Source: Lentzea tibetensis (GTDB taxonomy: Bacteria; Actinomycetota; Actinomycetes; Mycobacteriales; Pseudonocardiaceae). Taken from it: a DNA stretch of 64,000 bases. The position numbers and the translations under genes were made by a program. Location of the stretch: positions 1 through 64,000 of the forward strand of contig NZ_VOBR01000036.1 in assembly GCF_007845675.1 (NCBI RefSeq), read 5' to 3'. The notes under the pieces are model-generated. The model saw only the letters and a list, made by a program, of their open reading frames with translations. It did not search any database and had not been told where the DNA came from. Position 1 is the stretch's first letter; the number at the start of each line of letters is the position of its first letter. Positions 21,969 through 46,193 of this stretch are shown in pieces.

Positions 21969-22024
21969 GCCTGCTCGGATCGGCCGCGTTCCGCGCTACT
22001 CACCTTTCCTATGAAGGAGACGTC

Positions 22025-24634: not shown

Positions 24635-24730
24635 ACCATCCAGCCCTTCCACCGCATCGCCCCTGTCACACACCCATCTCGCCCCGGCCTGCCCCCAGGG
24701 CGGCTCAGCCAACCCTTCCGGAGGTGGACG

Positions 24731-25804
24731 ATGATCACCAATCCCACTCGGCAGCGCGCCCTGCGCGGCCACAAACCCGCCCGCCCGACCCCGCGCGCCG
24801 CGAACACCGCCGAGCACCAGGCCGTGCTGGCGTGGCGGCTGACCCCGCGCGACAAGTGGATAGCCCGGATGCTGTGGGAGCACCGGGTACTCACCGCGCA
24901 CCAGCTCACCGCGCTGGCGTTCCCGTCGGTCCGATCCGCGCGGATGCGGTTGCGGGAGCTCTATACCTCGGGTGTCGTCGACCGATTCCAGCCGTTCGTC
25001 ACTGTCGGCACCTCACCCATGCACTACGTCCTGGCACCCGCCGGGGCCGCCGTGCTCGCCGCCGAGGACGGCGTCGACGTCAAGGAGATGGGCTACCGGC
25101 ACGACCGCGTCATCGGCGTCGCCCACAGCCTGCGCCTGGCCCACACCATCGGCGTCAACGAGTGGTTCACCGCCCTGGTCGACCGCGCCCGCCACCCACG
25201 CCCCGGTGAGCAGGTGACGTTGACGGCGTGGTGGTCGGAGACCCGGTGCGCCAAGCACTTCGGCGACCTGGTCAAACCCGACGGCTACGGCCGCTGGCAC
25301 GACGGAGACCAGCAGGTCGAGTGGTTCCTGGAGTACGACTTCGGCACCGAGGTCCTGGCCAAACTCGCCGGAAAGCTGACCGGCTACGCCGCGCTGGCCC
25401 AGTCCACCGGGATCACCACCCCGCTGCTGGTCTGGCTGCCCACCTCACGGCGCGAGACCACCGCCCGCCGGCTGCTTCAGCGGGCCTGGCGCGAGCTGGA
25501 CGAGCCGCGCTCGGTCCCGGTCGCCACCGCGGCGGCCGAACTGCTCAACCCCGAGGCCGCCCACCCCAGCCCGGCCGACGAGGTCTGGCTGCCGCTCGAT
25601 CTCCCCGCCGGAGGGGCGCGGCGGCGGACGCTGCCGGGGCTGCTCGACGCCTGGCCGCACGTCCCGCCGCCGATCACCACCGGCGGCGAAGCCGGTCTCG
25701 GGACGGACTCGCCGCAGCCAACATTCCCGCCGCCCTCACCGATGCCGCCCGCCTCGACCAAGCCACGCCCGCTGCGCGGGCCGGGCCGGCTGGGGCGGTG
25801 GTGA
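24731..25804 (+). CDS. Replication-relaxation (Replic_Relax) family protein
   Basis: 357 residues. The N-terminal winged helix (DKWIARMLWEHRVLTAHQLT, SVRSARMRLRELYTSGVVDR) and the following core (YRHDRVIGVAHSLRLAHTIG, then VEWFLEYDFGTEVLAKLAGK) match the Replic_Relax family, which is thought to act in replication initiation or DNA processing of actinobacterial plasmids and integrative elements. The acidic residues in FLEYD would suit a nuclease-like core. The C-terminal 60 residues are Pro-rich. It sits between the coupling ATPase and the wall hydrolase in the transfer operon. Confidence 0.83.
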   Translation: MITNPTRQRALRGHKPARPTPRAANTAEHQAVLAWRLTPRDKWIARMLWEHRVLTAHQLTALAFPSVRSARMRLRELYTSGVVDRFQPFVTVGTSPMHYVLAPAGAAVLAAEDGVDVKEMGYRHDRVIGVAHSLRLAHTIGVNEWFTALVDRARHPRPGEQVTLTAWWSETRCAKHFGDLVKPDGYGRWHDGDQQVEWFLEYDFGTEVLAKLAGKLTGYAALAQSTGITTPLLVWLPTSRRETTARRLLQRAWRELDEPRSVPVATAAAELLNPEAAHPSPADEVWLPLDLPAGGARRRTLPGLLDAWPHVPPPITTGGEAGLGTDSPQPTFPPPSPMPPASTKPRPLRGPGRLGRW

Positions 25805-29031: not shown

Positions 29032-29374
29032 GGTGATGTCCTTGAAGGTTGGATGGTCGGGGAACGGGGTCATCTGGTTCCGGACGTAGTGGCCGGGTGA
29101 TCGACGTGTATGGACGCTTCGTGACCGCGTGGTTGTCAACGCCCATGTGCACAACCGGGCGAAGTGGACCCATGTGGCGCAACAGAATCCCTGCTCCGCG
29201 CCACCGTCTACACGAGACAGGCGTCTTGTTTGTCGAACCCGCTTGACTTCATGGGCCGAAGGAAGCGTCCATAGTCGTGTAGCCCGAACACACCGGCAGC
29301 GCACCGGGGGCCACACCGCTCCGGCCGGGGCATGACCACCCACCACCGATCACAGAAGCGAATCGAGGGATGTC
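29032..29374. promoter_or_regulatory. Divergent intergenic region
   Basis: This 343-base region separates the leftward RAMA gene and the rightward winged-helix gene and must contain both promoters. TTGACT at 29243-29248 and CATAGT at 29270-29275 look like promoter hexamers, but their 21-base spacing is too long for a standard promoter. No gene is seen. Confidence 0.35.
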
Positions 29375-30241
29375 ATGCCCAGCAAGACCCGCACCCGCAA
29401 AACCCGCACCACCGCCAGCACGACCGGATCCCCCCGGACCCTGCAGTCGGTTCCTGAGCAGACCGCCGCCGCGAAGGTCCGCACCGACACCGAAGACAAG
29501 CTGTGGGAGGCGTTGCACGCAACCCCGAACAGCGCCGCCTCCGACCTGTCCGTCGCGGCGAAAATCGGGAAGTCGACCGCGCAGAAGATCCTCGTCAAAT
29601 GGGCCGCCGACGGCAGCGTCACCCGCACCGCCGGGATCGCCGAGGGTGGTCGGCGCGCCGCCGACCTGTGGGCGATCACCGAAGTCGACACCACCCAGGC
29701 CGACCCGACCCCGGTGGACACCCCTGCGGCGGAGGACGCCGACGCGACGGACACCACACAGGCCGCTCCGGATGTGCCCGACGCCGAGGACGCCACGGAT
29801 ACCGAGGGAGACTCCGTCGAGCCGACGGACACCGCAGCCGATGAGGCACAGGCCCCGGTCGACACCGAAGTGGCCGACCCCGTGGAGGCCGAGCCCGTCG
29901 TCGCCGAGGTGACCGACCCCGCCGCCGCTGACGGCCCGGACGGCGCGACGACCGACGTCGACCCATCGACGAAAGGTGGCGCGGACGCAACGGGTGAGAA
30001 GGCAGCACGGCTGGCTCCCGGCGCGTTGCGCGGGATGGTGGAGGACTACCTGCGTGACCACCCCGGCGAGCAGTTCGGTCCCACCGCGATCGCGACCGCG
30101 CTGGGCGGGAAGTCGTCGGGCGCGGTGAGCAACGCGCTGGACAAGCTGGTCGAGGACGGCGTGGCGACGAAGACGCTGGACAAGCCGAGGCGTTTCGCGC
30201 TCGCCGAATCCGAGCAGGAGGCTGTCTCGCCGACGAGCTAA
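29375..30241 (+). CDS. Double winged-helix protein with acidic linker
   Basis: 288 residues. A basic Thr/Arg-rich tail (1-20) comes before winged helix 1 (residues about 40-105: LWEALHATPNSAASDLSVAA, STAQKILVKWAADGSVTR). About 95 residues of Asp/Glu/Thr-rich disordered linker follow. Winged helix 2 (about 218-280) reads FGPTAIATALGGKSSGAVSN, then ALDKLVEDGVATKTL. Helix 2 is closely similar to the N-terminal helix of the MoxR protein encoded at 36043-37239, so the two probably recognise the same DNA or partner. It may be a regulator or nucleoid-type protein of the element. Confidence 0.72.
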   Translation: MPSKTRTRKTRTTASTTGSPRTLQSVPEQTAAAKVRTDTEDKLWEALHATPNSAASDLSVAAKIGKSTAQKILVKWAADGSVTRTAGIAEGGRRAADLWAITEVDTTQADPTPVDTPAAEDADATDTTQAAPDVPDAEDATDTEGDSVEPTDTAADEAQAPVDTEVADPVEAEPVVAEVTDPAAADGPDGATTDVDPSTKGGADATGEKAARLAPGALRGMVEDYLRDHPGEQFGPTAIATALGGKSSGAVSNALDKLVEDGVATKTLDKPRRFALAESEQEAVSPTS

Positions 30242-32458: not shown

Positions 32459-32797
32459 TCAGGTGGGTGTCACCCAGGCGCACCGTGCGGGATCCCAGGT
32501 CGCCTCGGTGTAGAGGCGGTTGAGGTCGGGAAAGCCGGGGCCGATCATCCAGCCGAGTTCCTCGCAGTCGAGATGACCGGGCCACCATCCGGTCCAGACG
32601 TCTCGCCCGCAGTCGTGGTCGAGGTCGCACATCAGCCGCTGCAGCCCGGTCACCAGGCAGCGCGCGACGTCACACCCGCCGTCGTACTCGTCGTAGTCGT
32701 GTGGCTCGCCGACGGCGACCGCGCAGTCCGGGCAGGTCGCCTCGAAGTCCAGTAGGCGGAACGGTTTGTCTTGAGTACTGTCACCTTGGTCGTCCAT
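32459..32797 (-). CDS. Small Cys/Trp-rich protein, end of MoxR/VWA operon
   Basis: 112 residues from ATG 32797, with GGAGGAA upstream. FEATCPDCAVAVGEPHDYDE holds a CxxC, and CDVARCLVTGLQRLMCDLDH adds more Cys and His, giving a likely zinc-binding knuckle. GRDVWTGWWPGHLDCEELGW is Trp-rich. It is last of eight leftward genes starting at 37563. The function is unknown. The CxxC plus acidic profile is typical of accessory proteins on actinomycete plasmids. Confidence 0.65.
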   Translation of the reverse strand: MDDQGDSTQDKPFRLLDFEATCPDCAVAVGEPHDYDEYDGGCDVARCLVTGLQRLMCDLDHDCGRDVWTGWWPGHLDCEELGWMIGPGFPDLNRLYTEATWDPARCAWVTPT

Positions 32798-32901
32798 CGC
32801 GTTCCTCCAGTCTCCGGTGTTGTCGTCGCGCTCGTCCCGAGAGGTTCGTTGCACACTGTGGCCCATGTGCTGCGGACATCCGGTTGGACGCCGGGTTCGG
32901 A

Positions 32902-33099
32902 TCACAGCACGGCGGACATGTCGCAGCCGCCGACAGCGGCCCGGCAGGCGGTGCAACGCTCCCACCACTCGGTGGTGCCTCCGTAGCCGGGCAACGAGTC
33001 CGACTCGCAGGTGTTGATCGCGCCGCAACGGGTACATCGGTGGTCGGTTTCGCTGCACAGCTCGAACAGAGGTTCCCCGGTGGCGTGTGCGGTGGACAT
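32902..33099 (-). CDS. Small double zinc-ribbon protein
   Basis: 65 residues: LCSETDHRCTRCGAINTCES, then WWERCTACRAAVGGCD. The two CxxC pairs with further Cys suggest a zinc ribbon. It lies within the leftward MoxR/VWA operon, about 60 bases after the preceding gene and about 100 before the next. It could be a nucleic-acid or protein adaptor. No family could be named. Confidence 0.55.
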   Translation of the reverse strand: MSTAHATGEPLFELCSETDHRCTRCGAINTCESDSLPGYGGTTEWWERCTACRAAVGGCDMSAVL

Positions 33100-33159
33100 G
33101 GTGGCGCGCGATGGGAGTTGCCGTTGAGACGGCTTCCGGCACCGTGAACTCCTATTGTG

Positions 33160-33525
33160 CTATTGGGGTTCAGGCCGTTGTTGGTCTTGCTGCGACACTC
33201 GCTGGTGGACACGCGGCCACGCGCGTCCGGTCGTGATCCACACCCGACCGTGGGCGAATGTGAACACCCAGTCCGTGTCGCGGCTGTCCGGCCACAGCCA
33301 CGGCCAGCCGTTGTGTGGATGGTAGCCGTGCCTGTGGTCTTCGTCGGCCCACACGTCGAGCAGGTCGGTCACGGCGTCGGCGTAGGTGAGCGGGTCGGTC
33401 GCGTCCAACAGCAGTCGTCCACATGCGACGGTGCGCACGGTGGCGGGGTCGGCGTCGCCTTGGAGTGAGCCGAGCCAGACGGCGTGCGGTCCGCGCCCGT
33501 CGTAGAAGTCGGCGGTGGTAGTCAC
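33160..33525 (-). CDS. Hypothetical protein in MoxR/VWA operon
   Basis: 121 residues beginning MTTTADFYDGRGPHAVWLGS. It is rich in Asp, His and Trp (DEDHRHGYHPHNGWPWLWPD). The acidic, aromatic make-up resembles small proteins of actinomycete mobile elements often found beside antirestriction-like genes, but there is no firm match. It starts 3 bases after the preceding stop, so it is in the same operon. Confidence 0.62.
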   Translation of the reverse strand: MTTTADFYDGRGPHAVWLGSLQGDADPATVRTVACGRLLLDATDPLTYADAVTDLLDVWADEDHRHGYHPHNGWPWLWPDSRDTDWVFTFAHGRVWITTGRAWPRVHQRVSQQDQQRPEPQ

Positions 33526-33528
33526 CGG

Positions 33529-33873
33529 TCACCGCCGTGGCGGGCGGGTCGCGTCGCGGAGCAGCCGTTCGACCTCGTGACTTTCGCGGGCGGTGAGGAT
33601 GGTGGTCAGCACGAAGACGGCGTCACCTTCGTAAGGCGCGGTCACCGGGTGGCCACCGAGGCAGAGGTGGTCGCCGTCGGCGGTGACGATGCGCCAGTCG
33701 GACTGGCGGACACGGTCGGCGGGGTAGTAGCTGCCTACGAGCACACCGTCACGGGTGACGTTGCCGTACAACACCTGTTGCGCATCCGCGGGCTCGTTGA
33801 CGACCGAGGTCACCTCGCAGCCGTTGTCGGTGAAGCGACGAACCACGGTCTCAGGTACATCGGGGACAGTCAC
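33529..33873 (-). CDS. Hypothetical protein in MoxR/VWA operon
   Basis: 114 residues: MTVPDVPETVVRRFTDNGCE, DGVLVGSYYPADRVRQSDWR, then AVFVLTTILTARESHEVERL. It is predicted soluble, mixed alpha/beta. No motif was recognised. It starts 27 bases after 33901-34179 and is followed 3 bases later by 33160-33525. The tight spacing suggests joint expression with MoxR and the VWA protein. Confidence 0.62.
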   Translation of the reverse strand: MTVPDVPETVVRRFTDNGCEVTSVVNEPADAQQVLYGNVTRDGVLVGSYYPADRVRQSDWRIVTADGDHLCLGGHPVTAPYEGDAVFVLTTILTARESHEVERLLRDATRPPRR

Positions 33874-33900
33874 GGTGATCTCCTTGATGTGCGTGGGTTT

Positions 33901-34179
33901 CTATCGCCTGGACGGAAGTTCGAAGGAGCAGTCGTCGTCGCAGTCCTCACGTCCGCTGTGTGCCACGAACGGGCAGTCGTCGCGGTGGGCTTTGGTGAAG
34001 GTGACGCTGCCGTCAGGGTGCTCGAAGGTGCGCAGCGCGCCGCCGTGGCTGGTCGCCCAGGCGATGTCGTCCGGGGCGATGCGACATTCGGCGGTGAAGC
34101 CGCTGCTGGTGGCCAGCAACGCACTCACCGCGCGGTAGACCTGGGGCGACAAGGTCACCGTGGGCGGCGGTGCAGCCAT
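33901..34179 (-). CDS. Small acidic Cys-containing protein
   Basis: 92 residues from ATG 34179, which has GGAGG 8 bases upstream; the ATG at 34188 lies too close to that site. It contains FTAECRIAPDDIAWATSHGG and a C-terminal DDCPFVAHSGREDCDDDCSF cluster with three Cys. It is directly downstream of the VWA gene. The function is unknown. Confidence 0.62.
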   Translation of the reverse strand: MAAPPPTVTLSPQVYRAVSALLATSSGFTAECRIAPDDIAWATSHGGALRTFEHPDGSVTFTKAHRDDCPFVAHSGREDCDDDCSFELPSRR

Positions 34180-34237
34180 GGTGAACACCTCCGGTTGGGG
34201 TCCGGGGCGGTGCGGCCGCCCCGGACCGGGCTGGCGG

Positions 34238-35998
34238 TCAGCGGGTGGCGCGGAGGGCGGCGGTGGCGGCGCGGCCGACGGCCTGCGCGGTGGTGGTGGG
34301 GTCGGTCATCACGTGCACGGTCGCCCCGGTCATCGGATTGCGCCACATGACGTCCGGGGTGATCCACAACACCGCGCAACCGGTGGCGCGCAACCGGTCG
34401 AGGAGCTGCTGCCCGTTCTGCCGGGGTCCGGGACGGAAGTCGCCGTCGGACACGATGACCAGCAACCGCGCGGCACCGGGGCTCGACAGTCCGAGCGCGC
34501 CGTCGAGTGCGTCGATCGCGGTGTCGATAGCTTCCCAGTTGTCGCGGGTGGCGAATTCGGTCACGGCGGCGGGCGTCGTGCCGGGGCGGGTGATCGGGCG
34601 GACGTGATGCCCGAAGATCACGGTGGCGGTGTCGGCGGGCACCGGACTCTGCGTGGCGGCGTTGGCCAGAATCCACGCGGTCGAGGCGACCGGTTTCGCG
34701 AAACTGCCCATGGACCCGGACACGTCGCACGCGATACCGAGCCGTAGCGGCGGGGTCGGGACCGGGGTGCGGGTGGTGCGGGTGAACGGTTCGGCGGTCG
34801 GCATCGCCCCGGCGGCGAGTTGTGCCTCGCGTGCCAGCGCTCCGCGCATCCGCAGGCGTCCGGGTGGGATTGTCGAGGTCGTTTTCGTCGCTACCCGGTC
34901 GCGGACTCCGGCGGTGGTCAGCGCGCGCCCGAGTACCCGCGCGGCGGTGCGTTCGTCCGTGGTCGGCGGGCGGGTGCCGGTCGTTTCGGTGGTTCCGTCC
35001 TGGGGACCACCGACCATGGAGAACACGGTGCGGGCGGCGTCGCTGGCCTTCTTCGCGGCGGCGGCGTCGGCGGCCTTCGTGCGGGCGGCGATCTCGGCGG
35101 GGTCCTCGGGCAGCTTCGCCCGCGCTACCGCGCGCGTCACCTTGCGCAATGCCTTGCCGATCGCGTCGGCCAGCGGGGACGGCGACGGGCTGCCGGACGG
35201 GTCGGGGGCGGCGGACGGGTCGGCGAGGTGCAGCGGTGTGGTGTCGGGGTCGGGTCCGATGATCTCGCACCACCGGCGGCCGAGTTCGAGCATGACGGCG
35301 GTGTCGTCGTCGGCGGTGCGGAACGCCTGATGCCACACCGCACGCAGCTTCGCGAGTGTCAACTTGCCGAGCACCGCTTCCACGACGTCCGCGACGGGGG
35401 CGGTTTCGGCGCGGGTGAGGATGCCGCCGTCGGTGCGTCCCAGGAACAGGGCGGCGGTGTGGGCGGCGTCGCGCGGGGTCATTTTCGGGGCGAAGGCGGG
35501 GTCGTCGAGTTTCATGCCGCCCGTGACGATGGTTTTCACGCACGCGCGCAACCAGTGCCGGTCGTCGGGGCGGCGGTGGATCTGTGCCCGTTCGATCCGG
35601 GGCTCTTCCAGCAGCAGCGCGGCCTCGACCGCGCCGGGGTCGGCGTCGGCGGGGACGGCGGCGAGCCAGGCGGTGTGTTTGCTGTGCGCGCATTCGTGGG
35701 TCAGCGCACCCCAGGTGGGGGCGTAGCGTTTCCGGTCGCTCATCCGGTGCGGTGTGGCGGTGGCGGGGTCGACCGGGTGCAGGTGCGTACCGTCGACTTC
35801 GATCGTGGCGGTGGCGGGCAGGAAACACGCCGGGGCACCCTGTCCGGCACCTGGCGCGATGGTGACCAGCAGGTCGTCGCGGTCGGCGATCGCGGGGACT
35901 TCGGCGGTCAGCGCGGCGGAGAGCGCGTCCCATCCGGGGGCGGCGGGGAACACGGCCGACGCGGTGGCGGCGGGGTCGGCGATCATGTGCGCGGTCAT
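34238..35998 (-). CDS. VWA-domain protein with HExxH metallopeptidase-like site
   Basis: 586 residues from ATG 35998 (AAAGGA upstream). The N-terminal part contains WGALTHECAHSKHTAW, giving H101-E102-x-x-H105, a zinc-peptidase motif known in metallopeptidase-like regions linked to VWA domains. The C-terminal VWA domain has an intact metal-dependent adhesion site: DVSGSMG (about 420-426), the TATVIFGH block and IVSDGDF. The linker is rich in Ala and Lys. By analogy with MoxR-VWA pairs, the AAA ATPase encoded next to it would remodel targets with this protein as adaptor, possibly with proteolysis. Confidence 0.82.
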   Translation of the reverse strand: MTAHMIADPAATASAVFPAAPGWDALSAALTAEVPAIADRDDLLVTIAPGAGQGAPACFLPATATIEVDGTHLHPVDPATATPHRMSDRKRYAPTWGALTHECAHSKHTAWLAAVPADADPGAVEAALLLEEPRIERAQIHRRPDDRHWLRACVKTIVTGGMKLDDPAFAPKMTPRDAAHTAALFLGRTDGGILTRAETAPVADVVEAVLGKLTLAKLRAVWHQAFRTADDDTAVMLELGRRWCEIIGPDPDTTPLHLADPSAAPDPSGSPSPSPLADAIGKALRKVTRAVARAKLPEDPAEIAARTKAADAAAAKKASDAARTVFSMVGGPQDGTTETTGTRPPTTDERTAARVLGRALTTAGVRDRVATKTTSTIPPGRLRMRGALAREAQLAAGAMPTAEPFTRTTRTPVPTPPLRLGIACDVSGSMGSFAKPVASTAWILANAATQSPVPADTATVIFGHHVRPITRPGTTPAAVTEFATRDNWEAIDTAIDALDGALGLSSPGAARLLVIVSDGDFRPGPRQNGQQLLDRLRATGCAVLWITPDVMWRNPMTGATVHVMTDPTTTAQAVGRAATAALRATR

Positions 35999-36042
35999 CG
36001 CGGTGTGTCCTTTCCGGACGGTTCGGGCGGGGCGGCTGGTGG

Positions 36043-37239
36043 TCAGATACGGGCACCGAGTGCCAGCGGGGCAACGGTTTTACCGAAGGCGGTCTTGACG
36101 GCGGTGGCCACGATGTCGCGGTCCTCTTCCGGGGCGGTGCCGATCAGGTTCCCGGCGGCGGCGTCGATGCCCAACACGTCGGCGATCTTCTGGAATGCCA
36201 GCAGTTCGCGGAGTTGTGGTGCCCACCGGATCTCGCCGTTGGCCTGTCGGGTGGACAGGTTGCGCGCCACGGACACGGCGCGTTTGTCGATCTTGAGTTG
36301 GGTGGCGAGGTCGTAGTCGGTGGACACCTGGATCTGAACGGAGAACCGCGACGCCAACGCATCCGAGAGCACCGCGCCGTGCACGCCGGGGTTGTGTCCG
36401 GCCACCACGTAGAAGCCGGGGGCGGCGTCGATGACTTCGCCGCTGTTGGCTTTGATCATGATTTGGCGGCGTCCGTCCATCGCGGGGTAGACCACGGCGA
36501 GCACGGTCGGCGGGATGAGCGTGGCGTCGTCGATGAACAGGGTCCGGCCTTCGCGCATCGCGCGGACCAGCGGACCGTGCACGAACACGAATTTGCCGTC
36601 CGGGGTTTGGGTGTACTCGCCCACGATGTCGGCGACCGTGGTGTCGCCGTCGCCCTGAACCGTGACCAGGTCACCGAAAGCGGCCTCGACGACCGAGGTC
36701 TTCCCGGTTCCGGGTGGTCCGTACATCAGGGCGGCGACCCCGGCGTCGCGCAACTTGCGCAGCGCGGTCACATCGGGCAGCCCGGACAGCGTGCGCGGGT
36801 GGTAGAGCTGCCCGTTCGGACGCGTCACCGGACCGGTCACCGCCGGAGTCGCCGGGGCGGCGGGCGTGGTCGTCGCGGGTGGCGGTGTCGTCGGGCGGGG
36901 TGTGCGGGGGCGGCGCGGCGTGCCGGATGGGATCGCGACGGGCGCGGCGGCGGCGTCGGCGGTGGTCGGGGTCGACCGGTAGCGCACCGGTTTGGTCGAG
37001 GTCTGCTCGGCGTAGCCCCTGGCGGTCAGCGCCGCCAGCGCGTTGCCGATCGCCCCGGACGACCTCCCGCCGAGCGCGGCGGCGATCGTGCGCGGAGTCA
37101 GTTCCGCGCCCGCCCGATCGGTCAGGACTTGCGCCACCCGGCGGCGCAGTTCGCCGTTGGGCAACCGTCCGCCCGCCGGGGCGGCGGTCGTCGTGCCGGA
37201 GGCCGCCGGGGCGGGCGTCGGCGTGGCTGGCGCGGTCAT
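36043..37239 (-). CDS. MoxR-family AAA ATPase with N-terminal winged helix
   Basis: 398 residues from ATG 37239, chosen because the AAAGGA spacing matches that of the VWA gene. Residues about 25-85 form a winged helix (LTPRTIAAALGGRSSGAIGN) very like the C-terminus of the protein at 29375-30241. A Pro/Thr linker follows. The AAA domain then has Walker A GPPGTGKTS (about 170-178), Walker B TLFIDDATLI (about 231), and GHNPGVHGAVLSDALASRFS holding sensor 1 and the arginine-finger region. MoxR proteins are chaperone-like. DNA-binding fused to MoxR is not usual and suggests DNA-targeted action. Confidence 0.85.
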   Translation of the reverse strand: MTAPATPTPAPAASGTTTAAPAGGRLPNGELRRRVAQVLTDRAGAELTPRTIAAALGGRSSGAIGNALAALTARGYAEQTSTKPVRYRSTPTTADAAAAPVAIPSGTPRRPRTPRPTTPPPATTTPAAPATPAVTGPVTRPNGQLYHPRTLSGLPDVTALRKLRDAGVAALMYGPPGTGKTSVVEAAFGDLVTVQGDGDTTVADIVGEYTQTPDGKFVFVHGPLVRAMREGRTLFIDDATLIPPTVLAVVYPAMDGRRQIMIKANSGEVIDAAPGFYVVAGHNPGVHGAVLSDALASRFSVQIQVSTDYDLATQLKIDKRAVSVARNLSTRQANGEIRWAPQLRELLAFQKIADVLGIDAAAGNLIGTAPEEDRDIVATAVKTAFGKTVAPLALGARI

Positions 37240-37308
37240 CGCGGATGTCCTTTCGCTCATTGCGGACGAATTCGGAACCGGTGCGGGAATTCGGCAGGTC
37301 CGGGGGGA

Positions 37309-37563
37309 TTACCCGGCGGCAACGGTGAAATGCGCGACGCGTTCGTCGTCGCCGTCACCGGAAATGCTGGCGCGAAGATCGGCGTAGCCCATCGCGCGCA
37401 AAACGGCAGCGGTGGCATACCCGCCACAGTTGCGGCGCGTCCGCGTGCGCGACCCGTCCGGGGCATGAACCGTGACTTTCCGGCCGTCGAACGTCACCGG
37501 GCAGCACATCACGGTGACACCGTTCTCGATCATTTCAAACGGTGCGGTCGTGGTGGTAGTCAT
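37309..37563 (-). CDS. Small protein, first gene of MoxR/VWA operon
   Basis: 84 residues from ATG 37563 (GGGGAA upstream). It reads MTTTTTAPFEMIENGVTVMC, then FDGRKVTVHAPDGSRTRTRR and CGGYATAAVLRAMGYADLRA. The pattern of an N-terminal beta hairpin followed by a helix suggests a compact domain. The 69 bases between it and MoxR allow co-transcription. No family was recognised. Confidence 0.6.
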   Translation of the reverse strand: MTTTTTAPFEMIENGVTVMCCPVTFDGRKVTVHAPDGSRTRTRRNCGGYATAAVLRAMGYADLRASISGDGDDERVAHFTVAAG

Positions 37564-38070
37564 GACATTCCCCGTTTCGTCCGTTAGGCATGGCTCGCGC
37601 CGGGTGTGGTATTCGGTGTGGTTTCCGGTTCCCCCGGCGGTAGTACAATTATTACTCTGCCGCGCGCCGTACGCAATAGAAATGTCCACCCATTTCAAGA
37701 CTCTTTTCGCGGTCGCGACGGGAGAATGGAAATCCGTCCGTGCGGTCACAATTCGGGCCGTCATTTGTAGGGATTTCCGCAGCTCAGCGATCCGGCCGTG
37801 CGTCGGCCCCTGCGGGCGGCAAACGGTATAGCGAGATGCGAGCAACAACACGACGAAGGGTAAGAAATGTAACAAACAATAGGAAAGGCGAATGCGGGGA
37901 AGGTGGGACGGTTGAACCGTGACCACGTGTCGGCGGTGAAAGCGCGACCACCCGGCCCGCCCCGATGTGTCTACCGGCGTGTGGGCACGCGAGTCTGGGA
38001 TACCAGCGGATCCCCCGGCAGGCGGTTTGAGCAGCCTCTTTCTCGACCATCGGGGGTGGCGTTCTAACAG

Positions 38071-38118
38071 GATCCCCAAGCTGACCCCCAATGTGATCCC
38101 CCATGGGAACCCCCAACG
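38071..38118 (+). repeat. Four 12-bp iteron-like repeats
   Basis: The tandem units are GATCCCCAAGCT, GACCCCCAATGT, GATCCCCCATGG and GAACCCCCAACG, with consensus GA-Y-CCCC-M-A. All are in the same orientation and phase, about one helical turn apart, as in binding arrays of replication initiators or relaxase accessory proteins. Confidence 0.65.
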
Positions 38119-38890: not shown

Positions 38891-41800
38891 TCAGCGCCGC
38901 GGCTCCAGTCCGCCGCCGCGCGGCAGACCAGCTGTGGCGGTGGATGCCGTCTCGTGGCGTTGCCCGAGCCGGGCGGCCAGGTCGATCGCCTCAGGGGTGG
39001 GCCGGTCGTCCACCTCGGCCAGCCGAGTGGTGAGCAGGGTGAGCGTGCGGGGGATGGCGTCCGGTCGGCCGAGGCGTTCCTGCAGCCGCATGATGTCGCG
39101 GTAGAGCAGCTCGTTGTGCGGGTCGAAGGCCCGCGCCAGCTCCAGCAGGTCGAGCGTCTGCTCGAGGTCGTCGTCGACCAGGGCGCGGGCCAGGGCCGCC
39201 ACGGCGTCGAGGGTGTCGCGGCGGATGGCCTCGCGCGCGGACTCGATCCAGTCGGTGGACATTCCGTCGGCCAGCGGCCCGGTGTAGGAGTTGACGATGT
39301 CGCGGTAGGCGTCGGTCCGGTCGTGCGGGGTCGTGGCAGCACGGCGCCGGGCCACCGCGCGGTCGAACTGCCAGTAGTCGACGTCGACCACCGTGGGATC
39401 GAGCCGGAAGCTGCCCTGCCCGGCGACGACGATGTCGGCCAGCGCGCCGTCGGTGGCCTTGCTCAGGGTGCCGCGCAGCCGCGACAGCGCCGTGTTGAGC
39501 GCGCTGGTGGTCTTCTCCGGTGGGCTGTCCGCCCACAGCGCCCCGATCAGCGACTCCCGCGTGGCGCCGTCGGGATGCAGGCCCAGGAACATCAGCAGCT
39601 CCCGCAGCCGGGGCTGGAACGCGCCGGTGACGTCCTGCTCGGCGCCGGGGTGCGGTCGCCAGTACACCCGCGGCCGGCCGAGCACGGCCAGCCGGACCGG
39701 GACCGCGGCTCGATCGCCCTTATCCGCGCTCGCGGGGTCACAGGGCTCGCCCGTATCCATGCTGTGCGGCTCGTCGCTGACTGCTGCCTCGTGGTCGTGG
39801 ACTTCGGAGCTGGTTGAGGACGGTGGCCGCTCGGTGACCGCGGCCGGGCGCGGCCGCGCGCCGGTCGGTGGGACCGCGCGCGTCTCGATGATCTCCAGTC
39901 CGGTGCCGGAATAATCGACCGGGCCCGCCACGGCGGTGACTTCCAGCTCGGTGTCCGCCGCGAGGACGTCCTCGCCGGCCACCGCGACCTCGCCGCCGAC
40001 CCGGTGGGCCCCGGCGTCGTCCGCGGCCATGTCCTGCTCCGCCGATTCGGTGTGCGTAGCACGAGGACCCGGTACATGTGAGCCGAGCACCGCGTCCGGG
40101 GTGGGCGTCTGCGGCTGCGCGTGGCGCAGCAGGTCGAGCAGGTCGGTCGCGTCGTCGGCGCCGACGCGGAACACCTGCGTGCCCCGTAGCGCCTCACCCA
40201 GGCCGGGGCCGGTGGCGGAGATGGTGCCGTCCTCATGGACGTAGGCGGTGACGCCGGCCCGCCACTGCCCCAGCAGGATGCCGACGATTCCGAAGGGCGC
40301 GCCGTTGTCCAGGACGGCTTGCAGCCGCTGGTGATTGTGCTGCTGTGGCCGCGCCACCAGAACCACCGCGGGCCACGGGCCCGAGTCCTGCTCGCGGGCC
40401 CGCCGCAGGATGCGGGCCTCCAGTTCATCCAGCGCCTCGTCGAGGCCGGCGAGCACCCGCAGTGACCGGGGCAGGTGGGCGCGAGTGGTGCCGTGCCCGA
40501 GTAACAGCGGCAGGTCGTCGGCGGGGACCAACACGCTCGTCCCCGCCGACATCGCCAGGTGGCCCGCGCAGTGTGTCGCTGTGGTAAGCGCGGTGACCAG
40601 CAGCGCGCGAGCGGCCGCGGGGGCACCCGCGCCGATCAGGCCGAGGCCACGGGCTGCGGCCAGGTCCAGCGCGATCTCCCGCCCGTCGCGCACCCCCAGC
40701 CCTGGCGCGATCTGCCTCGAGGTGGGGGCGTCCACGCCGATGACCACCGTGGGCCGGGGCACCAGGTGACGGTCGTCCTGGCGTGAGTCGGTGTCCTCGA
40801 GGTCGAGTTCGTCGTCCCGCTCGGCACGCAGGTGGGCCAGTCGCAGCTGGTAGACCACCGGGGCGACAGGGAGGTCGAGGTCGTCGCGTCGGCCACTGCC
40901 CGGCCGATAGCGGTTGCGATGGCGACGGCGCGCGACCAGCAGCGCCGCGCTCACCGCGGCGGCGAGCCCGAGCCCGACGAACAGCTCCGGCCCCCAACCG
41001 ATCGCGGGCTCGTCCGACACGGATCGCGGTGCCGGGTTGCCTGCGGTGGGGTGAGCCGCGGGCACCGACGTAGCGGGCGGCCTCGTGGTCGTAGATGGTG
41101 GTGTGGTGGCCGACGCCTGCGTGGACGGCTCCGGCGACGGTTGCCGCGGTGGCGGCTGTGGTGGCTGAGCCGGCGGGGGCACGGGCGCGGCCTTCGCGTC
41201 GGCGGGCAGGCGGAGTTCTTCACCGGGGAAGATCAGGTGTGGATTGGTGAACGGCTTGCCGTTGGGCTGGGGCTTGCCCTTGTTGAGTTCGAAGATCTCC
41301 GGCCAGCGCGCGCTGTCGCCGAGGGTGCGTTGGGCGATGCGGGACAACGAGTCGTGGACTCCGCTCTCGGGATCGCGGGCGCGCACCACCACCGACTGAG
41401 GTCGCTGACCTGCGGCCGGGCCGGCCGAACTGTCCTGCTGGGTAACGAGAGCGGCACGCCGCACCGCGACAGCGGATGCATCGGGTGTGGCGTGCCAGGC
41501 CGGGGCGGTCGCCACCACCGTGGGTCCGGTCCAGGCAGGTGCGGACAGCGGGGTGGTGGGTGGCGAGGTGGCGCGGTTGCCCAGGATCGGCAGCAGGATC
41601 GCGCTGATCAGCACCGCGGCCAGCGCGTGCCCCGGCCCGCGCGCCGAGGCCTGGGGCCGGTGGGCGGCGCGCATGCCGTCTCGTGTGGCCTGGGCCGCGC
41701 AGCCGATGACGTCGAGCACGAACGCGGCCCACACCGGCCAGCACAGGCAGGCCAGGAAGTCGAGCAGGAACGTCGCGGTCATCGGGCCGAGCAGCAGGGC

Positions 41801-42031
41801 TTCGACCTCCGCCCAGGCCGGGATGTGGTCCGGTAGAGGCCAGCCGATGTAGTGCCACAACGCCCACGGCAGACCCGCGACGAGCGCGAGCAGCACAGCG
41901 GCGGCGATCAGCCCCCGCAGGACCCGGCCGACGAACCGGAGCGTGCCAGCGAGCACCGACCACCAGGGGCGGCGGCCGGTGCGCGGCGGCCGGATTATCG
42001 GCCGACGGGAGGTTCGAGGGTGTGCGGTCAT
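38891..42031 (-). CDS. Membrane LysM-BTAD regulator
   Basis: 1046 residues from ATG 42031. Order: two or three N-terminal membrane helices (about 30-110), a linker, a LysM domain (about 215-280; SLSRIAQRTLGDSARWPEIF, NKGKPQPNGKPF, LIFPGEELRLP), a Pro/Thr linker, another membrane helix (about 360), a long cytoplasmic region of P-loop-like fold without a clear Walker motif, and a C-terminal BTAD module (VRLAVLGRPRVYWRPHPGAE, LIGALWADSPPEKTTSALNT, YTGPLADGMSTDWIE). BTAD occurs in SARP activators. LysM binds peptidoglycan. Such fusions sit beside Tad-like clusters and could link wall state to pilus expression. Confidence 0.8.
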   Translation of the reverse strand: MTAHPRTSRRPIIRPPRTGRRPWWSVLAGTLRFVGRVLRGLIAAAVLLALVAGLPWALWHYIGWPLPDHIPAWAEVEALLLGPMTATFLLDFLACLCWPVWAAFVLDVIGCAAQATRDGMRAAHRPQASARGPGHALAAVLISAILLPILGNRATSPPTTPLSAPAWTGPTVVATAPAWHATPDASAVAVRRAALVTQQDSSAGPAAGQRPQSVVVRARDPESGVHDSLSRIAQRTLGDSARWPEIFELNKGKPQPNGKPFTNPHLIFPGEELRLPADAKAAPVPPPAQPPQPPPRQPSPEPSTQASATTPPSTTTRPPATSVPAAHPTAGNPAPRSVSDEPAIGWGPELFVGLGLAAAVSAALLVARRRHRNRYRPGSGRRDDLDLPVAPVVYQLRLAHLRAERDDELDLEDTDSRQDDRHLVPRPTVVIGVDAPTSRQIAPGLGVRDGREIALDLAAARGLGLIGAGAPAAARALLVTALTTATHCAGHLAMSAGTSVLVPADDLPLLLGHGTTRAHLPRSLRVLAGLDEALDELEARILRRAREQDSGPWPAVVLVARPQQHNHQRLQAVLDNGAPFGIVGILLGQWRAGVTAYVHEDGTISATGPGLGEALRGTQVFRVGADDATDLLDLLRHAQPQTPTPDAVLGSHVPGPRATHTESAEQDMAADDAGAHRVGGEVAVAGEDVLAADTELEVTAVAGPVDYSGTGLEIIETRAVPPTGARPRPAAVTERPPSSTSSEVHDHEAAVSDEPHSMDTGEPCDPASADKGDRAAVPVRLAVLGRPRVYWRPHPGAEQDVTGAFQPRLRELLMFLGLHPDGATRESLIGALWADSPPEKTTSALNTALSRLRGTLSKATDGALADIVVAGQGSFRLDPTVVDVDYWQFDRAVARRRAATTPHDRTDAYRDIVNSYTGPLADGMSTDWIESAREAIRRDTLDAVAALARALVDDDLEQTLDLLELARAFDPHNELLYRDIMRLQERLGRPDAIPRTLTLLTTRLAEVDDRPTPEAIDLAARLGQRHETASTATAGLPRGGGLEPRR

Positions 42032-42119
42032 GACGTGCTCGATTCCTAGGCGGTACAGCGCAATCGGCGCCGTGGTCAACCCTGCGTCCGCGGGCGCGGC
42101 ACGGACGCGGCCGGAGATG

Positions 42120-42602: not shown

Positions 42603-43076
42603 TCACGGGTCGATGCTCACCACGCCCCGTTGGGGATGGGCACTGCCCACACCGTGAACGGGCAGGCGGGACACGCCGACGAGCCCGAGCAGTTGGGTGG
42701 GCTGGGCGGCGGTGATGGTGACCGTGACGGTGTCACCGGACACCGTCACCGTGCCCAACGCGCCGACGGCGGCGAGATAGCCCTGCGCGTTGGCGACCGC
42801 GTGCACGGGCACCAGCTGCAGGGTGCCGCCGCTGCGATAAGCGGCGAGGTCGATGGCCTGGGCGCCGGCGCGGGCGGCGGCCTCAGCCTGACCGTTGGCC
42901 TTGACCTTGGCCGCGAGCGCCAGGCCGCCGTCAAGGGCGAGCCCGGCCAGCACGAGGATCGCGAGGGTGATCGTCACCACGAACGCGCTCACCCGGCCCT
43001 CGTCCGCGCGCCACCAACGGCGGCAGCGGGTGCGCCACCAGCGGCCGCGCCGCACAGGTCGGGGTGTACGGTTCAT
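42603..43076 (-). CDS. TadG-like pilus assembly protein
   Basis: 157 residues from ATG 43076, which overlaps the stop of the TadE-like gene (ATGA). A basic N-terminus comes before [20 protein letters not shown] and GLALDGG, a TadE/TadG-type hydrophobic anchor. The residue at +5 after the putative cut is Phe, not the usual Glu, so it may not be processed. Mature part: [18 protein letters not shown] and a beta-rich end. Minor structural part of the pilus. Confidence 0.72.
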
Positions 43077-43627
43077 GCGCCGCCTCCGGCAGCGTTCCCC
43101 GACACCGAGCGCCAGGTGTCGATTGGCTCGCTTGCGGTGGCGGACAAGCGTTTCTGGCCCGGCACACCGAGCAACAGCGCGTCGCCAAAATCGACCACAC
43201 AGGACACGGTCACGCTGACCGTGCCGCCTGGCCGCATTCCGCCGGTGGCGGTGTCCACGCCCAGCGACCGGCACGCGACACCGGCCGAGGCCAGCGCGGT
43301 CGCCGCGGTCGCGTGTGCCGCGGCGACAGCCCGTGGCACGGTGCGTTCCATGCTGGCCGCCCTCGAGGCCTGATGCGCGGCATCATTGATCCGCAGGCGC
43401 GCGTCGACTCCCCGGTGGACGACCACGGCGACGAACACCAGCAGCATGACCAGAAACGGCGCCACCAGGGTGACTTCCGCGGCCACCGAGCCGCGATCGT
43501 TCCGCCACCAGGCCGACCACTCCTGGCCGCCGGATTCTCGCCGCTGCGGCCGTTGTAGGCGGCCGTGCGGGTGCCTGGCGGTCGGGTGCGCCGAGCGGGA
43601 GCGTAGAACGGATAGGCTGAACGTCAT
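43073..43627 (-). CDS. TadE-like pseudopilin, second copy
   Basis: 184 residues. After a 45-residue basic leader comes [20 protein letters not shown], with Gly then Glu at +5, the class III prepilin pattern expected for TadE. The rest ([35 protein letters not shown]) is extracytoplasmic with two Cys. It starts 6 bases after the preceding TadE-like gene and overlaps the TadG-like gene. It would be processed by the prepilin peptidase encoded at 51315-51956. Confidence 0.78.
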
Positions 43628-43633
43628 CGCCGG

Positions 43634-44110
43634 TCACCGGCCTGTCGCGACGTCGGGCACGAACCGTTCGACCGGCCCGACGGCCTCGGCGCGCACCGGC
43701 AGACTCAGGAACGGAACGACCGAGGTGGCGATGCCGGAGATCCGCACGGAGGCGGATACGGCGCCGCGCTCGGCGGCGATGTTGGTGCCGGTCAGCGGGC
43801 CTTGGGCCAACTGGTCGAGGAGTTGTTGTGCGCTGGCGGTGCCGGCCGCGGCAGTTCCGTTCTGGGCTCGCGCGGCGGCAAGCCCTTGCGCGGCAGCGGC
43901 TTGCGCGATGTGTGTGGCATGGCTCCACAGCGCGAACTGCACGATGGCCAGCAGGATCAACAGCAGCAGCGGTGTCGCGATCACGAGTTCCGCGCTGACC
44001 GCACCGAGATCTCCACGCAGAACCCGGCGCAGTCGACCGGACCGGTTCGCGCCCGGCCAGTGACCTCTCAACCCGCGCCGGTGGTGGTGGTCCGGCGGTG
44101 AGGCTGTCAT
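43634..44110 (-). CDS. TadE-like pseudopilin, first copy
   Basis: 158 residues from ATG 44110 (GTG 44122 is an alternative). DLGAVSAELVIATPLLLLIL has the Gly and +5 Glu of a class III prepilin, then AIVQFALWSHATHIAQAAAA, the usual TadE helix. It is followed by about 90 residues of mature domain without Cys. It lies directly after the Flp pilin gene. Minor pilin expected to start or regulate pilus assembly. Confidence 0.8.
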   Translation of the reverse strand: MTASPPDHHHRRGLRGHWPGANRSGRLRRVLRGDLGAVSAELVIATPLLLLILLAIVQFALWSHATHIAQAAAAQGLAAARAQNGTAAAGTASAQQLLDQLAQGPLTGTNIAAERGAVSASVRISGIATSVVPFLSLPVRAEAVGPVERFVPDVATGR

Positions 44111-44124
44111 AGCGGTCGTCACGG

Positions 44125-44313
44125 CTACAGGGTGATGCCGTTGGCCTTGGTGAGGACCTTCGCGGCGATGATGGCCACGACGGCGAGCGCGACTGCGACG
44201 AGCAGTGCGGTCACCAGCACGGTCTCGGTCGAGTACCCCGCCTCGGGGTTGCGGCGCAGCAGCTCGATGCGAGTCTTGAGCGTGGTCCACATTGCGTGCC
44301 AGTGCTCGTGCAT
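44125..44313 (-). CDS. Flp-type major pilin
   Basis: 62 residues from ATG 44313 with AAGGAG 6 bases upstream. The leader ends NPEAGYSTETVLVTALLVAV. Cutting after Ala would place Glu at +5, although the usual Tyr at +6 is Thr. One long hydrophobic helix and a short polar end (AKVLTKANGITL) complete it, as in Flp/Tad pilins. It lies just after tadC and before the TadE-like genes. It is the structural pilus subunit. Confidence 0.82.
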   Translation of the reverse strand: MHEHWHAMWTTLKTRIELLRRNPEAGYSTETVLVTALLVAVALAVVAIIAAKVLTKANGITL

Positions 44314-44359
44314 CGCGTTCTCCTTCCTGTCCAACGTCGAAGGCCCGTCGTGTCGGGAT

Positions 44360-45262
44360 CTACAGTCCATTGAGGACTTGTATGAGTGCCGGGTGGCCGA
44401 TGAATGCGAGAAATCCCAGGAACAGTGCCATGACCGGCAGTGACATGCGTTCGGTCGCGGACTGGGCGTCGGCCTCGGCGTCGGTGAGCTGGTGGGTGCG
44501 CAGCGCCGCGGCCTTGGCCGCGAGGCTGGCGCGGACCTTGGCACCCTCGGTCCCCGCCAGGCTGACCGATGCCGCGAGCTCGGCCAGTTCGGTGACGTCG
44601 AGTTCCTCGCCGAGCTGGCGCAGCATCGCCCAGGGTGTCGTGTGGGTGAGCCGCGCGGTGTCCAAGGCGCGCTGGATCTGCGCGAAGGCCCAGCTGCCGC
44701 CGATGGCGGCCGAGTCGTGCAGGGCGGTGTCGACGCCCGCGCCACCGGCCAGCGTGATCCACACGAGGTCCAGAAAGGACGACAGGGCGTGGCGGAACCC
44801 GGTGCGCGACCTCGCTGCCTCGGATCGCGCCTGCAGGTCGGGCAGTAGGAATCCGGCGGCGGCCAACAGGAGCCCGGCGACGATCGGGACCTCGAACGTC
44901 AGCGACAGCCCGGCCAACGCGAGCGCCAGGTGCAGCAGCATGGGCAGCAGGAGTCCGGCGAGAGCCAGTGTGGCCTTCTCCGCCAGGTGGCTGGCCAGTG
45001 GGCGGCCGATGAGGGCCAGATCGCGGCCGAGACGCTTGCCGGGCAACCCGAGGGCGCGTAGCGGTGCGACGGCGGGGCGGCCGAGCGTGGCCGCCCACCC
45101 GGTGTCGTCGATGACCAGGATCGGAGGCGGCACCGGGGGCGTGGTGGCGCGCGTGAGGATCACCTCGAGCGGGGGGCGGGTGGGAAGCGCCCACACGATC
45201 AAGGCCCATAGCCCAGTTCCGGTCCCGGTGCCCAGCACCAGTGCGGTGATCACGCCGGTCAC
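44360..45262 (-). CDS. tadC: TadC-like inner-membrane platform protein
   Basis: 300 residues. Membrane helices lie at about 5-25, 100-140 and at the C-terminus. The T2SSF domain is in between (HALSSFLDLVWITLAGGAGV, then LGEELDVTELAELAASVSLA and AEADAQSATERMSLPVMALF). With TadB it forms the platform that couples TadA to pilin extrusion. It starts 2 bases before the stop of tadB on the same strand, so it is translationally linked. Confidence 0.83.
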   Translation of the reverse strand: MTGVITALVLGTGTGTGLWALIVWALPTRPPLEVILTRATTPPVPPPILVIDDTGWAATLGRPAVAPLRALGLPGKRLGRDLALIGRPLASHLAEKATLALAGLLLPMLLHLALALAGLSLTFEVPIVAGLLLAAAGFLLPDLQARSEAARSRTGFRHALSSFLDLVWITLAGGAGVDTALHDSAAIGGSWAFAQIQRALDTARLTHTTPWAMLRQLGEELDVTELAELAASVSLAGTEGAKVRASLAAKAAALRTHQLTDAEADAQSATERMSLPVMALFLGFLAFIGHPALIQVLNGL

Positions 45263-45263
45263 C

Positions 45264-46193
45264 TCACACCTGTCCTTCTGCGACCAGTGGCCGGTCTTTG
45301 CGGGATCGCGTGTCGGCGATTGCCAGGAACCGCGTTGGCTCCGTGACGCGGGAGATGCGTGCCAGCCAGGCGAACCCGGCGGTGAACAGCCCGCCGATGC
45401 CGAGCAGAATCAGCTGGCCGGTCACGGAGTCGTAGGCCGACAGGTAGGAGCGGTTGAGCAGCACTACCCCGGCGGCGAACGCGAGAGTGGTGCCCACGAT
45501 CACCCGGACTGAGGTGCGGGTACGGGCGCGCCCGGCCTCGATCCGCATCCGCATCGACGCCTGCTCCCGCGCGGTCCGCGCGAGGGCACCCAGCAGGTCG
45601 CCGAGCTGGCGGGCCTGCTGCTCGGCGGCCGTGATCAGAGCGGCGATCACCAGGTCGCCGGTCGGATCGGCAACCTGGTCGGCCATTCCGCGCAGGGATG
45701 GCGCGAGGCGCTCGCCGTTCTCCAGGTTCACGGCGAGGTCGGTGATCTCGCTCCGGATCGGCGTCGGCGCCAGCTTCGCGGTGGCGAGGATGGCTTGCTC
45801 CAGGCCGGAGGCGGCCGACAGCGTGTCGCGCAGCATTTCGGTCCAGGTGGCGATGGCTTCGATGCGGGCGACTCGGCGCGCGTGTTCGGGGTCGCGGCCG
45901 AGCACGCGGGGCAGCGCCCAGCACGCGAGTCCGGCTAGGATCGCGCCGACGAACCAGCCGGTGATCACCCCGGTCGCCGCGCCTACCGCGATTGCGACGC
46001 CGAGGTGGATCAGGACGCGCCGGTGCCGCGGTCTGTCGCTGTGGTGTTGCCGGGACAGCGGGCGGCGCGGCCGGTTCGGGTCGACGCCGCGCCAGCCGAT
46101 GATCACCAGAAGTAGGCCGAGTCCGGCTCCGGTCCCCAGCAGCGCGGCGAGTCGGACTGTGGGGCTGAGGAGGAGGGTCACTGCGGCCACCAC
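45264..46193 (-). CDS. tadB: TadB-like inner-membrane platform protein
   Basis: 309 residues from GTG 46193, overlapping tadA by 16 bases. N-terminal helices (about 12-33 and 60-95) come before a T2SSF domain (WTEMLRDTLSAASGLEQAIL, NLENGERLAPSLRGMADQVA, ITAAEQQARQLGDLLGALA), and two C-terminal helices end it. It pairs with TadC as the membrane platform of the Tad machine. Confidence 0.83.
   Translation of the reverse strand: MVAAVTLLLSPTVRLAALLGTGAGLGLLLVIIGWRGVDPNRPRRPLSRQHHSDRPRHRRVLIHLGVAIAVGAATGVITGWFVGAILAGLACWALPRVLGRDPEHARRVARIEAIATWTEMLRDTLSAASGLEQAILATAKLAPTPIRSEITDLAVNLENGERLAPSLRGMADQVADPTGDLVIAALITAAEQQARQLGDLLGALARTAREQASMRMRIEAGRARTRTSVRVIVGTTLAFAAGVVLLNRSYLSAYDSVTGQLILLGIGGLFTAGFAWLARISRVTEPTRFLAIADTRSRKDRPLVAEGQV

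Follow-up and report, generated by a model that had tools for sequence, protein, structure and literature searches.

Does mobile DNA carry a dedicated AAA+/zincin machine? This question, which can now be put in testable form, is raised by an operon in a 64,000-nucleotide stretch of DNA from the soil actinobacterium Lentzea tibetensis (contig NZ_VOBR01000036.1; hereafter, the window), which opens a contig of 86,342 bases in a genome of 9.36 Mb. The operon consists of eight co-directional minus-strand open reading frames between positions 32459 and 37563, separated by intergenic gaps of 51, 44, 49, 27, 3, 60, and 104 nt, and encodes a MoxR-family ATPase, a VWA protein, and six small proteins, S1 to S6 (Table 1). 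Published guesses for such MoxR–VWA pairs, one invoking cobalamin and the other virion assembly, conflict. We propose, with a probability of about 0.45, that the pair is an ATP-driven AAA+/zincin remodeller of DNA-bound proteins that acts during the establishment of the element or the processing of its DNA.

The VWA protein matched VWA_CoxE with an E-value of 3e-6, its score of 27.2 bits being just over the cut-off (26.4), and contains HECAH at residues 101-105 and DVSGS, the metal ion-dependent adhesion site (MIDAS), at residues 425-429. Relatives were compared in two alignments of hand-picked full-length proteins, A1 (23 proteins) and A2 (64 proteins). Of the 79 longer viral proteins, 50 were taken into A2, and the truncated L053, L054, and L143 were excluded from it. 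H101, E102, H105, E131, E136, D425, S427, and S429 were invariant in both alignments, down to 26-27% identity, and E132 and R134 were likewise invariant in A2. Because these residues are invariant in both chosen alignments, the HExxH motif is not a chance occurrence. The spacing from HExxH to the Glu was 28-32 in 53 of the 54 proteins with the pattern; 56 proteins were examined, and two truncated ones did not have it. E131 would serve as the third metal ligand of the putative zincin, and the N-terminus would, on these motifs, have a zincin fold and proteolytic activity. No peptidase was found among the matches listed for the VWA homologues, which cover 25 of 60 Pfam families. A PDB search with the VWA alignment gave one meaningless match at 0.28, and a PHROGs search with the family gave one match at 0.0098, in 1 of 23 members.

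Relatives of the VWA protein were present in 44 of 200 genomes of the host family (41 of the 183 good ones), for the most part inside conjugative elements with T4SS (type IV secretion system) and Tad pilus genes. Elsewhere in the phylum, a profile search at an E-value of 1e-20 found them in only 2 of 395 sampled genomes. The moxR gene was located directly upstream of the VWA gene on the same strand in 51 of 55 loci from hosts, plasmids, and phages. The four exceptions were L007, with MoxR on the other strand at about 3 kb, L009, with a distance of 1.3 kb, L008, with no MoxR in the stretch, and L054, with the winged helix only. VWA relatives were also found in 16 plasmid records (Streptomyces, Rhodococcus, Pseudonocardia, and Streptosporangium) and 21 phage records (Gordonia, Microbacterium, and one other). 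Viral contigs yielded 188 relatives; among the 80 of these that were kept and examined, MoxR was encoded upstream in 79, and HExxH, LEExRxE, and MIDAS were found in 79, 77, and 79, respectively, L143 yielding only an 87-aa fragment.

The pairing extends to distant carriers. The order HExxH, approximately 30 residues or slightly more, [L/C]E[D/E]xRI[E/D], and DxSGS was observed in a 'peptidase' of the cyanophage S-CRM01, a 'CobT' of an Ochrobactrum phage, and gp73 of the Gordonia phage Chidiebere, and their MoxR partners matched the window MoxR at 3e-10, 4e-9, and 5e-26, respectively, in a five-sequence comparison. In pCAR1, a plasmid of Gram-negative bacteria, the arrangement is MoxR–DUF3150–VWA, and the N-terminus of its VWA protein aligned with the profile of the window family with a pairwise hhalign E-value of 2e-11. 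The IncC and Methylophaga plasmid proteins matched the profile at 8e-10 and 2e-10, and a Citrobacter plasmid protein did so more weakly (2e-3 for the zincin-like domain). Relatives of the pCAR1 VWA protein occurred in 2,283 of 72,556 plasmid records, 1,923 of which were typed as conjugative; 964 hold at least 80% of it, and many others hold the VWA part only. Relatives of the cyanophage form occurred in 463 of 50,697 phage records, 83 of them with at least 80%. A VWA protein with this order of motifs stands next to MoxR in actinophages and cyanophages and, among plasmids, in those of actinobacteria and in conjugative ones of Gram-negative bacteria (pCAR1 and IncC).

The MoxR protein has an AAA module (AAA_5, E-value of 6e-20), the Walker A sequence GPPGTGKT, and similarity to NorQ (2e-18) and CbbQ (2e-11), which with midasin are its closest PDB relatives; these features place it in the MoxR family. 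Its N-terminus looks winged-helix-like with modest support: a 17-sequence winged-helix profile gave AdcR as its best PDB match (E-value of 0.019), and the window MoxR matched LexA_DNA_bind at 0.016 only. Of 47 ICE-type MoxR proteins (those of integrative conjugative elements), 44 have this domain; with the sequences used to build the model set aside, the count is 29 of 32, and the three proteins without it are short gene calls. On the other hand, it was detected in none of 77 viral MoxR proteins and none of seven other plasmid, phage, or distant ones. The second domain of another window protein, the acidic wH288, is homologous to the MoxR N-terminus (37% identity, E-value of 6e-10) and matched MarR_2 at 8e-5, under the Pfam cut-off. 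In a Streptomyces plasmid (L004), a WGR domain is fused to MoxR in place of the winged helix, and in two further plasmids (L005 and L006), a WGR gene lies just before moxR; these matches were above the Pfam cut-off. A WGR domain in the gene preceding moxR in L200, seen by eye alone, and a reading of the Rhodococcus MoxR N-termini as WGR were rejected, the former for want of a Pfam match and the latter for want of both a Pfam match and profile support. A conserved protein of approximately 155 aa precedes MoxR in 71 of 77 loci of the viral contigs (L097-L176), in 70 of them directly upstream. No known family was recognised in the three members scanned, and kinship of this gene with WGR or the winged helix found no support.

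The carriers of the pair have in common that they are mobile DNA and provide their own replication or entry, and a remodeller or protease for DNA-bound proteins is therefore proposed. In the mechanism that we infer, from the assembly and its protease activity to DNA targeting, substrate, and timing, a MoxR hexamer would work with a two-domain partner, the VWA/MIDAS domain of which would dock on the ring and/or the target, while the N-terminal zincin-like domain would probably cut or remodel the target. A nucleic-acid-binding module on MoxR, a winged helix here and WGR in some plasmids, would bring the machine to DNA. The likeliest job would be to strip or cleave DNA-bound host or element proteins while the DNA of the element is processed or established. 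In NorQD, the VWA partner is mounted on the ring, and its VWA domain has been proposed to be twisted against the N-terminal domain as ATP is turned over (PMC13036017). By analogy, MoxR would act through its partner, pushing the zincin-like part against a target at a site chosen by the DNA-binding domain. Some neighbours of the pair serve DNA metabolism, as read by hand in a handful of regions with no background comparison: ssb-recT-exo (Rts1 and Citrobacter) or ssb-bet-exo (IncC) lies upstream of the pair or its VWA gene, and in the Ochrobactrum phage, the pair is found among clamp, clamp-loader, and endonuclease-subunit genes.

The initial annotation, made from the sequence, had described the eight-gene operon on a mobile element, with a winged helix on MoxR, HECAH and an intact DxSGS in the VWA protein, and small proteins mostly acidic or Cys-rich, and it had read the whole as a DNA-guided remodelling or protease system and as a strong candidate for an undescribed one. 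The layout, the two motifs, the nature of the small proteins, and the mobile setting were all found as described, and the winged-helix-like domain was found to be conserved. The interpretation gains partial support from the mobile element and from the conservation of the pair, the motif, and the DNA-binding-type domain. The suggestion that the system is undescribed was not supported, since related pairs are in print (PMC7824862, PMC2642839, PMC8651126).

Several observations weigh against a remodeller of DNA-bound proteins. The HExxH motif could be structural; an IncHI2 relative has HEAGH without LE[DE]xRxE and gave no significant profile match, and the Methylophaga relative also lacks the LE[DE]xRxE pattern. 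The winged-helix matches are weak, and the domain could instead serve protein contacts. DNA-metabolism neighbours were found neither beside the window operon nor in S-CRM01, and the majority of actinobacterial plasmid loci show none either. VirB4 and CpaF relatives are encoded no more than 15 kb from the VWA match of Streptomyces sp. BHT-5-2, which also speaks for the assembly role considered below. Finally, the solved relative NorQD has its role in inserting metal (PMC13036017).

A bolder form of the proposal, which we regard as doubtful, is that MoxR and the zincin-VWA protein constitute a bipartite ATP-dependent protease of mobile DNA, which would be guided to DNA by its module, would clear bound proteins during entry, replication, or recombination, and would be common to large phages, ICEs, and plasmids of both the Gram-positive and the classical conjugative kind. 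Its logic would be comparable to that of FtsH or ClpXP, with a separate origin, and a single machine would at present go by the separate annotations CobS, CobT, NorD, 'peptidase', and 'VWA protein'.

The location of the operon raises the alternative of an assembly factor, in which MoxR–VWA matures proteins of the type IV secretion system (T4SS) or the Tad pilus and the zincin processes a subunit. Among 48 VWA places, from which three weak or fragmentary matches (G124, G082, and G065:C55) were omitted and in which split matches were merged, a CpaF relative was located within 20 kb in 41 and a VirB4 relative within 40 kb in 37, several of the misses being near contig ends. VWA distances also follow those of the backbone genes (Mantel r of 0.61-0.77, with host phylogeny as a confounder that was not removed), and a tail-assembly MoxR–VWA precedent from an Acidianus virus is cited in PMC7824862. 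However, among the 106 stronger VirB4 places, 38 had a VWA gene within 60 kb, 27 had CpaF without VWA in that range, and 41 had neither. In the VWA-less G092, nothing separates the pilus block from the Replic_Relax gene, although this copy may be decaying because its VirB4 contains a stop codon. In addition, none of five VWA plasmids matched the VirB4 model PF19044. Plasmids make no virions. Virion or pilus assembly is therefore unlikely as a general role, given the plasmids without virions, the absence of VirB4 matches in these five, and the many T4SS elements without the pair. That elements lacking a virion regularly carry the pair, and that plasmids in which no VirB4 was recognised do so too, points the same way, and a strict T4SS/Tad assembly role is weakened.

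The correlation with the backbone genes indicates that MoxR–VWA is a module inherited with part of the element family. The view that it is cargo only was rejected, since VWA distances track the backbone as closely as backbone genes track each other. The pair lies in an otherwise variable region between two transfer blocks; in other VWA-less elements, different small genes occupy the gap between the pilus and T4SS blocks. By score rank, VWA accompanies 36 of the 45 closer CpaF relatives versus 5 of the 45 more distant ones. In one VWA-less element (L183:16642-19909), the same region holds genes that look PAPS-reductase-like by eye, which suggests a cargo site.

Anti-defence (or defence), in which the machine would unfold or cleave host immunity proteins soon after entry and the acidic small proteins would be adaptors or DNA mimics, is also unlikely. 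Its appeal lies in the position of the operon between the Tad and T4SS blocks, where gene content varies, in a Pseudonocardia plasmid relative near ArdC-like, WGR, and PemK genes, and in counter-invader systems that contain MoxR–vWA–peptidase combinations (PMC7159879, PMC12839542). Five of the six small proteins are indeed acidic (pI of 4.05-5.26; 6.7 in S1), and seven and eight Cys residues are found in the 65-aa and 112-aa proteins, respectively. However, PADLOC gave no strong match, the best being weak ones at 4e-4 (the MoxR P-loop) and 3e-3 (the wH288 helix-turn-helix), no sensor component was recognised in the operon, and the pair is inherited with the backbone, not shuffled. No known anti-phage defence system was thus recovered, and nothing was found that points to entry exclusion, which the initial annotation had suggested alongside defence and antidefence.

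The small-gene cassette appears to be partly conserved. S3, S6, S4, and S2 recur with the pair in a part of the loci, whereas S5 and S1 hardly do so (Table 1). S3 is placed upstream of MoxR in some loci, and the S5 match in L179 is 56%. None of the six small proteins gave a convincing family match in Pfam, NCBIfam, PADLOC, or PHROGs.

A chaperone like NorQD or CbbQO, which would insert a metal or activate a metalloenzyme, is improbable. NorQ and CbbQ are the closest solved relatives of MoxR besides midasin, but no recognised metalloenzyme recurs beside the pair, many neighbours having no known family. CobST cobaltochelatase subunits that borrow the host CobN for cobalamin are highly improbable: although MoxR matched a phage 'porphyrin biosynthesis' family at 2e-23 and a cobalamin role has been proposed for viral cobST (PMC8651126), the window protein gave VWA_CoxE only, CobT was absent among the matches listed for its 64 homologues (25 of 60 families), the conserved HExxH–LEExRxE is left unexplained, and no cobalamin gene was found among the 20 element proteins scanned, CobN not having been sought in the genome.

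Related pairs have been described under several names. Group 2.2 jumbo phages encode a MoxR–vWA–metallopeptidase pair, for which virion assembly and processing were proposed (PMC7824862). Like the window pair, it comprises MoxR and a vWA protein, the N-terminal metallopeptidase domain of which would correspond to the putative zincin of the window protein, the two pairs being likened by description; unlike it, the window pair is on a virion-less ICE, with a winged-helix-like MoxR and a small-gene cassette. 'cobST' has been reported for viruses (PMC8651126). The cobS and 'peptidase' genes of S-CRM01 share with the window pair the HExxH–LEDxRIE–DxSGS layout and a related MoxR, whereas the 'peptidase' is very distant in overall sequence and gave a weak single-sequence profile match (E-value of 0.007). 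The motif data favour the peptidase reading of the pair.

The moxR and VWA genes of pCAR1 were noted in 2009, and genes of this stretch are conserved in R478, Rts1, SXT, and R391 (PMC2642839). The pCAR1 and IncC proteins share with the window protein a homologous zincin-like domain and conjugative carriers; unlike pCAR1 and its relatives, the window has no DUF3150 match among its proteins, no ssb/bet/exo beside the operon, and a different transfer system. In plasmid Rts1, an IS2-like insertion sequence splits the zincin and VWA parts (L215:39030-42192). The VMAP/MoxR–vWA ternary conflict systems also combine MoxR with vWA and sometimes peptidases (PMC7159879), whereas no VMAP or effector domain was recognised in the window operon with a library in which the presence of VMAP models was unchecked. 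The bpMoxR model gave no match to the window MoxR at E-values up to 1, and no conflict-system family matched the small proteins. NorQ–NorD resembles the window pair in combining MoxR with a protein that has an N-terminal domain, a linker, and a VWA domain, but NorD works in iron insertion (PMC13036017, PMC9976466). PMC13036017 mentions neither 'peptidase' nor 'zinc', and PMC9976466 does not mention 'peptidase'. Among the open-access papers listed in literature searches, none was on winged-helix or WGR forms of MoxR or on an actinobacterial ICE form. What is new is the virion-less carriers, the nucleic-acid-binding modules on MoxR, the partly conserved small-gene cassette, and the conserved upstream DNA control region.

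Table 1. Features of the window. Counts of small genes were obtained by tblastn at the loci, with same-contig duplicates removed (55) or kept (62); the loci are not independent.
Feature	Position	Strand	Remarks
S1, first operon gene	37309..37563	-	84 aa; homologues in 3/62 loci
MoxR-family AAA+ ATPase	36043..37260	-	405 aa, alternative start 37239; AAA_5 6e-20
MoxR N-terminal winged-helix-like domain, ~residues 32-100	36961..37167	-	profile A3
VWA protein with N-terminal zincin-like domain	34238..35998	-	586 aa; VWA_CoxE 3e-6, alignments A1 and A2
HExxH...LEExRxE motif, residues 101-136, putative zinc site	35591..35698	-	invariant in A2
MIDAS DVSGS, residues 425-429	34712..34726	-	D425, S427, S429 invariant
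S2, acidic, 4 Cys	33901..34188	-	95 aa; 14/55 loci
S3, acidic, most often conserved small gene	33529..33873	-	114 aa; 29/55 loci
S4, acidic	33160..33525	-	121 aa; 20/55 loci
S5, Cys-rich	32902..33099	-	65 aa; 0/55 loci, one match in L179
S6, strongly acidic, 8 Cys	32459..32797	-	112 aa; 22/55 loci
Non-coding block 2: AAGAGTCTT palindrome and promoter-like sequence by eye	37586..37708	-	43/46 upstream regions
Non-coding block 1: GGGG(A/T)TC repeats, then inverted GGGGATCC/GGTATCCC pair, by-eye hairpin	37953..38118	-	43/46 upstream regions
wH288, acidic, two winged-helix-like domains	29375..30241	+	present in 43/55 loci
Large BTAD-domain protein, conserved neighbour	38891..42079	-	BTAD 2e-7; 43/55 loci
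Conjugation block: TrbL-like, PrgI, VirB4/TraG, VirD4-like coupling protein, Replic_Relax	16730..25804	+	VirB4 within 40 kb in 37/48 VWA places
Tad/Flp pilus genes: Tad, TadE, T2SSF, CpaF-like T2SSE	42603..47686	-	CpaF within 20 kb in 41/48 VWA places

The operon is positioned behind a conserved control region that contains two non-coding blocks, each detected at E-values up to 0.01 in front of the operon at 43 of 46 loci. The block 1 repeats are spaced 12 bp apart, with four in the window, and the inverted pair is the same half-site; about a dozen loci hold the second part only, without the repeats. The array is unique in the window, none of 30 one-strand shuffles gave one, and its pattern was matched in four viral contigs (L153, L155, L157, and L159). 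A scan of block 2 for the sigma-70 consensus gave no site. An RNA leader was rejected: there was no Rfam match at the gathering score, with one sub-threshold match at 0.43, and hardly any covariation in either block. The upstream blocks were therefore treated as DNA elements, and they are read as a putative operator array and a putative promoter.

Block 1 may be a recurring multi-operator element of this element family. Since copies occur without VWA, an origin of transfer (oriT) is no likelier than a general control element with several operators. Copies apart from MoxR–VWA were found at L203:9844-10013, L204:9875-10039, and L205:9846-10010, located roughly 170-570 nt downstream of regulator genes that look XRE-type by eye. 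Shorter copies, at L207:7900-8030, L209:1011-1138, L210:4979-5108, and L211:3917-4045, lose similarity at query position 135-137, just after GGTATCCCAGACT. A Replic_Relax relative was present in L203 and L206 only, among L203-L213. L206 and L213 keep block 1 and wH288, the latter also with S3 and pieces of MoxR, and gave no VWA match in the fetched stretch. In contig 1 of G022, copies at 67899-68029 and 11725555-11725685 are in opposite orientation and equidistant from the ends of the 11.79 Mb contig, a placement that resembles long terminal inverted repeats of a linear chromosome.

The gene make-up around the operon is that of a putative integrative conjugative element with a T4SS. A tyrosine integrase is encoded at 9126-10319, and an NlpC/P60 protein is encoded near the operon alongside the conjugation genes. 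In the actinomycete integrative and conjugative elements (AICEs), a single FtsK/SpoIIIE-like translocase replaces the T4SS (PMC3218068). The present element is not of this FtsK type, because VirB4/TraG, PrgI, TrbL, and VirD4-like genes are present. T4SS genes and a Tad/Flp pilus locus occur together on one element, which also encodes a RAMA-domain protein (28138-29073) and an N6/N4 DNA methylase (12312-13460).

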